Both the position numbers and the translations under genes were made by a program. Shown here in pieces: positions 8 through 28,691 of a DNA stretch of 35,706 nt; positions within the stretch are counted from its first letter, which is position 1, and each line of letters opens with the position of its first letter. Under the pieces are notes generated by a model that was given only the letters and a program-made list of their open reading frames with translations, was not told the origin of the DNA and did no database searches. The DNA is from Oceanospirillaceae bacterium (GTDB lineage: Bacteria; Pseudomonadota; Gammaproteobacteria; Pseudomonadales; Balneatricaceae): positions 271,630-307,335 of the forward strand of contig JABSRB010000001.1 of the NCBI GenBank assembly GCA_013215375.1, in the 5' to 3' direction.

Positions 8-82
8 TGGGGTATCGCCAAGCGGTAAGGCAACGGGTTTTGATCTCGTCATGCGTAGGTTCGAATCCTTCTACCCCAACCA
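8..82 (+). tRNA. tRNA-Gln (anticodon TTG), normal length
   Basis: A 75-nt cloverleaf including an encoded CCA. The acceptor stem is TGGGGTA with TACCCCA, followed by discriminator A and CCA. The D arm is GCC/GGC. The anticodon stem is ACGGG/CTCGT (one G-T pair) around the loop TTTTGAT, giving anticodon TTG. The T arm is GTAGG with loop TTCGAAT and CCTTC. The T stem holds a T-T mismatch at its second pair, which the usual enterobacterial tRNA-Gln lacks. The same mismatch is in the next copy, so it looks inherited rather than a sequencing error. The gene starts only 7 nt from the window edge, so a larger tRNA cluster may lie upstream. Confidence 0.95.
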
Positions 83-179
83 ATTTTTTATATCATCGCT
101 CTCTTTATACCGCTGACATCCAACTATTATTGATCTCATCAATTTAGTGTTAGCATTCTCAAACGGTATAAAACACTAT

Positions 180-278
180 TGGGGTATCGCCAAGCGGTAA
201 GGCAACGGGTTTTGATCTCGTCATGCCAACGGGTTTTGATCTCGTCATGCGTAGGTTCGAATCCTTCTACCCCAACCA
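180..278 (+). tRNA. tRNA-Gln (TTG) with duplicated anticodon arm, probable pseudo-tRNA
   Basis: This copy matches the first tRNA-Gln except for an exact 24-bp tandem duplication that covers the anticodon arm and the variable loop. The unit runs from CAACGGG to GTCATGC and occurs at 213-236 and 237-260, so the gene is 99 nt instead of 75. Acceptor stem, D arm, T arm and CCA are intact. The RNA could fold with two stacked anticodon arms, or pair the first ACGGG with the second CTCGT and expose a loop carrying two TTG triplets. Normal charging and decoding seem unlikely, so I infer a pseudogene unless the extra arm is tolerated. A short read or assembly duplication is the main alternative. Confidence 0.85.
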
Positions 279-27763: not shown

Positions 27764-28201
27764 TCAGCGCTGTAAAAAATAGACACCTGCTAGCAGCAGA
27801 AACACTCCAATAATCCGACTGGAATTTATTTCAATCTTCACTCCCGCTAAACCATAGTGATCAAAAATCACCGACATCACCAATTGCCCCAGAATTGCCG
27901 CCGCCAGCATGTTTGCAATACCAATGCGAGGCATGAGGTATAACATACCACTGACGAACACTGCACCTAAGAAGCCTCCCAAATAGAGGTACCAATCAAT
28001 ACTCGCTAAGCGTTTGTAATCTGGAATACTCGCCTGCGCAATCAATAAGACAAAAACACAGGCGATAGTGCCGCCTATATAAGAGACGAGTGTTGCTTGC
28101 ATAGGATGCAACATCAGCGCGCCTAAACGCGCGTTCAGCGCCCCCTGCATAGGGAGCATGGTTCCCGCTACTACAGCCATAGCGATTAACATCCAATTCA
28201 T
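27764..28201 (-). CDS. YdcZ-family (DMT superfamily) small membrane protein, intact copy
   Basis: 145 residues with five hydrophobic segments, the full length of the YdcZ/DUF606 group. It opens MNWMLIAMAVVAGTMLPMQG and has the family LNARLG. It is the last of three tandem copies downstream of tas. Its first 40 or so codons are identical in DNA to both truncated copies, whereas codons after SYIGGTIAC diverge. That pattern points to recent unequal crossover or gene conversion. ATG 28201 follows GAGG by 8 nt; an in-frame TTG at 28207 is less likely. Transport substrate is unknown for this family. Confidence 0.78.
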   Translation of the reverse strand: MNWMLIAMAVVAGTMLPMQGALNARLGALMLHPMQATLVSYIGGTIACVFVLLIAQASIPDYKRLASIDWYLYLGGFLGAVFVSGMLYLMPRIGIANMLAAAILGQLVMSVIFDHYGLAGVKIEINSSRIIGVFLLLAGVYFLQR

Positions 28202-28203
28202 TG

Positions 28204-28437
28204 TCAAAGCCTCAAGAATTTAAGGTAAAGAGCCATACTGGTTAAACGTTTGTCATCACAGAAACTCACCTGTGCCATCAGCAATACAAACAGACAGGCG
28301 ATTGTGCCACAGACATAAGAGACGAGTGTTGCTTGCATAGGATGCAACATCAGCGCGCCTAAACGCGCGTTCAGCGCCCCCTGCATAGGGAGCATGGTTC
28401 CCGCTACTACAGCCATAGCGATTAACATCCAATTCAT
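28204..28437 (-). pseudogene. truncated ydcZ copy 2
   Basis: The first 70 or so codons of a YdcZ-family gene, beginning MNWMLIAMAVVAG, end in an unrelated short tail (LYLKFLRL) and a stop. The tail is the leader and ribosome site of the next copy read as codons, so the break is a duplication junction. The start-to-start distance to the neighbours is exactly 236 bp on each side. It keeps a ribosome site, so a short peptide may be made, but a working transporter is unlikely. Confidence 0.75.
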
Positions 28438-28439
28438 TG

Positions 28440-28673
28440 TCAAAGCCTCAAGAATTTAAGGTAAAGAGCCATACTGGTTAAACGTTTGTCATCACAGAAA
28501 CTCACCTGTGCCATCAGCAATACAAACAGACAGGCGATTGTGCCACAGACATAAGAGACGAGTGTCGCTTGCATAGGATGCAACATCAGCGCGCCTAAAC
28601 GCGCGTTCAGCGCCCCCTGCATAGGGAGCATGGTTCCCGCTACAACAGCCATAGCGATTAACATCCAATTCAT
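28440..28673 (-). pseudogene. truncated ydcZ copy 3, nearest tas
   Basis: Almost identical to copy 2, with about two base changes over 236 bp, and the same truncated end. It starts 18 nt after the tas stop with GAGG 8 nt upstream, so it holds the original operon position. Its protein diverges from the intact copy after residue 42 (SYVCGTIACLF against SYIGGTIACVF). Confidence 0.75.
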
Positions 28674-28691
28674 TTGCAGAGCCTCAAGCGA

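Follow-up and report, generated by a model that had tools for sequence, protein, structure and literature searches.

Does a tRNA-Gln gene that carries its anticodon arm twice still specify a working tRNA, or is it a gene beginning to die, or an error of assembly? The question is raised by the third gene of a tRNA-Met/Gln/Gln cluster in an Oceanospirillaceae bacterium (genome G000, a 95%-complete draft with 5.0 Mb on 96 contigs). The window referred to below is the whole stretch of DNA analyzed, 35,706 nt long (G000:C1:271630–307335), and its relevant features are collected in Table 1. Our tentative answer, to which we would give a little less than an even chance, is that a genuine and recent 24-bp tandem duplication occurred in a redundant gene and that the resulting 99-nt RNA retains some function.

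Table 1. Features of the tRNA-Gln pair, in window positions
Feature	Positions	Strand	Basis
Intact tRNA-Gln(TTG), 75 nt, with U50:U64 mismatch in the T-stem and A73	8–82	+	ARAGORN; Rfam tRNA, 58.6 bits (8–79); T-stem/N73 survey
Spacer between the two tRNA-Gln genes, 97 nt	83–179	+	Nothing listed by ARAGORN or Rfam
tRNA-Gln(TTG) gene in which the anticodon module is duplicated; CCA is encoded	180–278	+	99 nt; Rfam tRNA, 51.2 bits over 180–275; no ARAGORN call
24-bp unit, first copy (tRNA positions 25–48), anticodon TTG at 212–214	203–226	+	TRF, exact search
24-bp unit, second copy, anticodon TTG at 236–238	227–250	+	TRF, exact search
Anticodon arm 1, putative working arm, adjoining the D-arm	205–221	+	Sequence; fold energies
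Putative class-II-like variable arm, 29 nt, containing anticodon arm 2 (229–245)	222–250	+	Sequence; fold energies
T-arm with U50:U64 mismatch (GTAGG/CCTTC)	251–267	+	Sequence; Rfam tRNA; T-stem survey

TRF reports an array at 203–250 with the unit CAACGGGTTTTGATCTCGTCATGC, a period of 24, 2.0 copies and a match of 100%. The unit occurs exactly three times in the window, once in the intact gene (31–54) and twice in the doubled one, and it found no match in 100 dinucleotide shuffles with up to three mismatches allowed. It comprises the last base of the D-stem, A26, the anticodon arm and the 5-nt variable loop. When one unit is taken out, the 99-nt gene and the intact gene agree at 75 of 75 bases, which confirms the initial annotation in its description of a 99-nt tRNA-Gln with an exact 24-bp tandem repeat over the anticodon arm and variable loop. 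A covariance model, named there as a means of checking the gene, recognizes it as well: the Rfam tRNA family (RF00005) aligns over its whole length (model 1–71 of 71) with a 26-nt alignment insert, and the score is above the gathering score of 29. ARAGORN lists just the intact gene in the window, a call by this program serving here as a tool check and not as a defining feature of a tRNA. Since it misses the 99-nt gene, genes of this kind may be under-counted; it does call an 85-nt enlarged tRNA-Gln (in the congener G003) and a 90-nt one.

Apart from the duplication, no lesion was found in the 99-nt gene on comparison with the intact gene. The gene bodies are identical, whereas the 50 bases 3′ of each tRNA-Gln gene align only partially, so we see no sign of decay besides the duplication itself. 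Microhomology that might explain slippage at the unit junction was absent from the flanking bases. The junction (217–233; L004 3217–3233) contains a small weak hairpin, CTCGT/ACGGG, followed by TTTT, with a terminator-like score.

The tRNA-Met gene of the cluster lies outside the window, 12 nt upstream of the intact tRNA-Gln, and is preceded by a reading frame that we take, from its ending, to be ychF. A promoter-like TTGACA-17-AATAAT (11/12) ends 18 nt before tRNA-Met, in a scan that gave 5 such sites per 1 kb where 2.7 were expected. Downstream of the cluster is the gene for a PAS-GGDEF-EAL protein, and the gene order of the locus is kept in the congeners G003, G004, G006 and G002. Searches by DNA, covariance model and pattern detected no tRNA-Gln in G000 beyond these two; 150 of 271 candidates were scored with the covariance model, and Trp and Ile are missing from the tRNA list of this genome, which is therefore incomplete. 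Integration of a mobile element was rejected as the source of the second copy, both tRNA-Gln genes being complete at their 5′ and 3′ ends and 97 nt apart, so that neither is the partial tRNA expected at the border of an element. Partial tRNA copies in prokaryotes have been traced to mobile elements and to CRISPR uptake (PMC9897764), and neither origin fits the locus. No remnant of tRNA-Met appears between the two tRNA-Gln copies in the ARAGORN or Rfam results. Farther along the window (27999–28688) a 236-bp unit is repeated in tandem (2.9 copies, 94% matches), and this array overlaps a minus-strand frame at 27764–28207.

How might a tRNA-Gln with a doubled arm still operate? The 99-nt gene would be co-transcribed and processed like its neighbors. 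Anticodon arm 1 would stack on the D-arm as usual and serve decoding, and the second copy would protrude between arm 1 and the T-arm, forming a class-II-like variable arm of 29 nt. Most of the contact points for Gln would stay available, so that charging would be at least partial, and the RNA would be tolerated because an intact copy exists. Separate use of the two anticodons is not expected.

Folding calculations are consistent with this arrangement. With ViennaRNA, which ignores tertiary contacts and modified bases, the 99-nt RNA held in a cloverleaf has an energy of −23.8 kcal/mol when both anticodon arms are formed, −18.9 when the first or the second is formed alone, and −17.2 when a single 31-nt loop displays both anticodons. 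The initial annotation had offered five arms or one large loop with two anticodons as possible shapes, and the energies favor the former over the latter. When the acceptor, D- and T-arms are held, each anticodon arm forms with a probability of about 0.65–0.68, and alternative pairings between the units reach about 0.31. The unconstrained minimum-energy folds of the 99-nt RNA, the intact 75-nt RNA and the G003 RNA have no proper T-arm; the ordinary sequence of G004, used as a folding control, has its anticodon and T-arms with a shifted D-arm. The intact gene of G000 is also weaker as a cloverleaf than the ordinary sequence (−18.9 versus −25.8), because of its T-stem mismatch. Fold energies of this kind cannot decide the activity of the 99-nt RNA. 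The region at 222–250, like a class II variable arm, is longer than 10 nt and could form a stem-loop with a 5-bp stem; this is a resemblance to class II tRNAs and no more. From the modeled energies, the 99-nt RNA probably adopts a five-arm, class-II-like fold.

Judged from its sequence, the 99-nt RNA may be charged by GlnRS at least partly. Class I synthetases generally approach the tRNA on the face opposite the variable loop. In E. coli, the determinants of Gln identity are acceptor stem, discriminator base, 10–25 pair and anticodon (PMC9976931). The 99-nt gene keeps U1:A72, the acceptor stem, G10:C25 and the anticodon UUG, with C25 still supplied by the first 24-bp unit. Both tRNA-Gln genes of G000 have A73 as discriminator where G73 is usual, so this base does not single out the doubled one; the U50:U64 mismatch is likewise common to both. 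The enzyme itself is encoded, as GlnRS (TIGR00440) scores above its cut-off in all seven genomes of the genus, G000 included. PMC9976931 also describes an amber tRNA-Ser, of class II, that became a Gln acceptor through changes in two acceptor-stem pairs; a long variable arm alone is therefore no bar to GlnRS.

The genus provides a second enlarged gene. Among its seven genomes, G001, G002, G004 and G006 have an ordinary 75-nt tRNA-Gln at 100% identity (single-copy as found in G004 and G006), and a search of G005, which is 87% complete, found no tRNA-Gln. These ordinary tRNA-Gln(UUG) genes agree with the 99-nt gene in acceptor stem, D-arm, anticodon arm, CCA and a place downstream of tRNA-Met, whereas the 99-nt gene differs in its 24 extra bases, in U50:U64 for a paired T-stem and in A73 for G73. 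In G003 (98% complete), the sole detected tRNA-Gln is 85 nt long and directly follows tRNA-Met (L006 1501–1586; G003:C93:20585–20670, minus strand). A 10-nt insert after its anticodon stem produces a 15-nt variable loop. The insert, TTTTTCTCGT, equals tRNA positions 32–43 (TTTTGATCTCGT) minus GA; 547 of 200,000 shuffles of the insert were derivable from the neighborhood with a deletion of at most 4 bases, in a test framed after the insert was seen. By its sequence the insert reads as a decayed copy of positions 32–43, and its origin was probably similar to that of the doubled arm in G000. The G003 gene thus resembles the 99-nt gene in carrying U50:U64 and, past the anticodon stem, additional bases that are derivable from adjoining sequence; unlike it, the G003 gene has no second anticodon, carries G73, stands first after tRNA-Met and has no intact second copy that we could find.

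No further tRNA-Gln was found among the 57 tRNAs inventoried in G003, a draft of about 230 contigs whose list is without Ile and some Leu isoacceptors and for which the covariance search scored 150 of 261 candidates. Pattern searches for a hidden tRNA-Gln there, with the usual spacing or one base less, gave 24 matches at up to two mismatches and 4 at up to one, none of them Gln by eye. The best of these (G003:C31:1929; L220 around 1501) was set aside as a 3′ tRNA-like fragment, with a T-arm, the acceptor 3′ strand and CCA, with no 5′ half and no ARAGORN call. A family-wide pattern scan returned enlarged tRNA-Gln genes in 2 of 116 genomes, namely G000 and G003, both of one genus. A search of related genomes for the 99-nt form, as the initial annotation had suggested, thus met that form, by this pattern, in no other genome of the family and met enlargement of another length in the congener. 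Because the enlarged gene of G003 is its sole detected tRNA-Gln, the balance shifts toward a tolerated oddity, and tRNA-Gln in these two species may tolerate an extra arm.

The T-stem change has a similar distribution. Across 51 distinct tRNA-Gln contexts in loci L004–L053, which are a part of the loci fetched, a T-stem mismatch is found in 4 only, all with U50:U64 and from G000 (three rows, two genes) or G003 (one row); A73 is limited to the three G000 rows, and the other 48 contexts have G73. Evidence on relatedness conflicts, with GlnRS and YchF placing G004 nearer to G000 than G003 is and Pth indicating the opposite. By most measures G004 is closer to G000 than G003 is, yet it has one ordinary tRNA-Gln. 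A genus tree built on three proteins, in which G005 and the outgroups have gaps, gives the relevant nodes support of 64, 70 and 76 and is too weak to tell whether U50:U64 arose once.

Retention of some function by the duplicated gene is favored by its unspoilt body, by a congener whose only detected copy is enlarged and by the determinants that are kept. Against it are A73, the weak T-stem, the free folds without a proper T-arm, the alternative pairings between the units, the junction hairpin with TTTT, the draft state of G003 with its incomplete tRNA list, and the ordinary gene of G004. A close rival, which we nevertheless consider unlikely, is a fresh pseudogene: the duplication would have killed the second copy, the gene at 8–82 would do all the work, and too little time would have passed for further decay. 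With an intact gene 97 nt upstream, the second one is dispensable, and G004 and G006 have, as found, one intact gene each. The pairings between units that compete with the cloverleaf and the missing ARAGORN call point the same way. However, no further lesion is seen in 75 positions despite diverged flanks, a soft argument since gene conversion could also keep the body identical, and G003 has kept an enlarged form as the one tRNA-Gln detected in it. Ancestry shared with G003, which is compatible with the other readings, would have the module duplicated in a common ancestor that also had the T-stem change, then eroded to a 15-nt loop in G003 and kept whole in G000. It accords with the limitation of U50:U64 to these two species among the 51 contexts, with the fact that the G003 insert can be derived from the corresponding segment and with the confinement of enlargement to these two of 116 family genomes. 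We do not favor it and regard it as improbable, because the units of G000 are identical, as suits a recent event, because the enlarged gene is first after tRNA-Met in G003 and second in G000, and because the genus tree is unsettled; the ordinary sequence of G004 also speaks against it.

An assembly or read artefact is less likely than a fresh pseudogene, and we hold it to be improbable. A 24-base contig overlap within a repeated tRNA could have been joined unmerged, or chimeric reads could have been built in. The assembly is a 96-contig draft, the duplicated sequence lies within a gene present twice, a contig of the congener G001 starts inside a tRNA-Gln (C24:1–71), and an unmerged overlap would leave the two units exactly identical, as they are. 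Yet no other exact tandem duplication of 15–80 bp was found in 235.7 kb of G000, a total that comprises the window plus ten stretches of 20 kb from contig 1; ten stretches of five other genomes (199.3 kb) contained one, a short GC-rich repeat run in G003. The contig is 307 kb long with the gene about 35 kb inside it, gene order there is kept relative to G003, G004, G006 and G002, and a k-mer assembler requires the junction k-mers to be present in the reads. The enlargement in G003 is no exact repeat and hence not a slip of this type. A pseudogene, a tolerated oddity and an assembly slip were the alternatives listed in the initial annotation; they proved to be the right three, with the balance between them now tilted toward tolerance by G003 and the slip made less likely by the 235.7 kb searched.

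A bolder form of the favored reading would make this RNA a five-arm tRNA that occurs naturally in bacteria: it would work as a tRNA-Gln with a duplicate of its own anticodon arm serving as variable arm, and tRNA-Gln in this genus would have gained long variable regions repeatedly through internal duplication. We regard this as doubtful. If it were true, a path leading from class I to a class-II-like tRNA would have been observed. To our knowledge, gain and loss of long variable arms in tRNAs has mostly been inferred from deep comparisons. If the 99-nt and 85-nt RNAs work, a class I tRNA can gain an arm by tandem duplication in nature while its synthetase is kept. If they do not, the locus offers a clean view of a redundant tRNA gene that begins to die.

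Class II tRNAs have variable arms of more than 10 nt (PMC7609411). The 99-nt gene resembles these tRNAs (Leu, Ser and bacterial Tyr) in having an extra arm between the anticodon arm and the T-arm, and differs from them in that this arm, of 29 nt, repeats the anticodon arm and belongs to an otherwise class I tRNA-Gln. Natural tRNAs off the standard cloverleaf include tRNA-Sec, allo-tRNA, selC tRNA-Cys and tRNA-Pyl, which in the passages of PMC7609411 that describe them differ in the length of the acceptor, anticodon stem or variable arm and have no repeated anticodon arm; the word stem "duplicat" is absent from the text of that paper. In the open-licence literature, no bacterial tRNA with a repeated anticodon arm was recognized from titles and the beginnings of abstracts. 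The initial annotation knew of no standard bacterial tRNA of this form, and no example of exactly this form came from that literature or from the collections scanned.

A broader pattern, which requires AAGGCA and a GGTTCRARTCC T-loop, returned at least 1 of 390 genomes in an order sample (G000) and at least 2 of 369 in a class sample (G000 and G656), both samples being without G003; the family pattern above was Gln-specific and differed from it, with a similar limit. In the G656 match (L219 1490–1579; G656:C32, minus strand), about 20 foreign bases follow the anticodon loop and the 3′ strand of the acceptor is mismatched; the match was judged to be a chimeric pseudogene beside an intact copy, although ARAGORN calls it. 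Among GTDB r220 contigs, in a scan that may leave out the window's own or very near records, a TTTTGAT/TTTTGAT/T-loop pattern gave 78 matches in 73 records, none of the 73 with a duplicated anticodon arm. The first TTTTGAT lay within the leader of an ordinary ARAGORN-called tRNA-Gln in 59 of the 73, and the other 14 were, by eye, non-tRNA sequence, tRNA-Lys or tRNA fragments. A viral scan gave 7 records, none with a duplicated arm; the patterns of all these scans were exact in loop and T-loop, so that diverged cases would be missed. The GTDB r220 scan also brought up a locus of Paraglaciecola arctica (L127 4961–5191) in which an intact tRNA-Gln is accompanied by repeated 3′ parts of tRNA-Gln whose upstream halves are degenerate.
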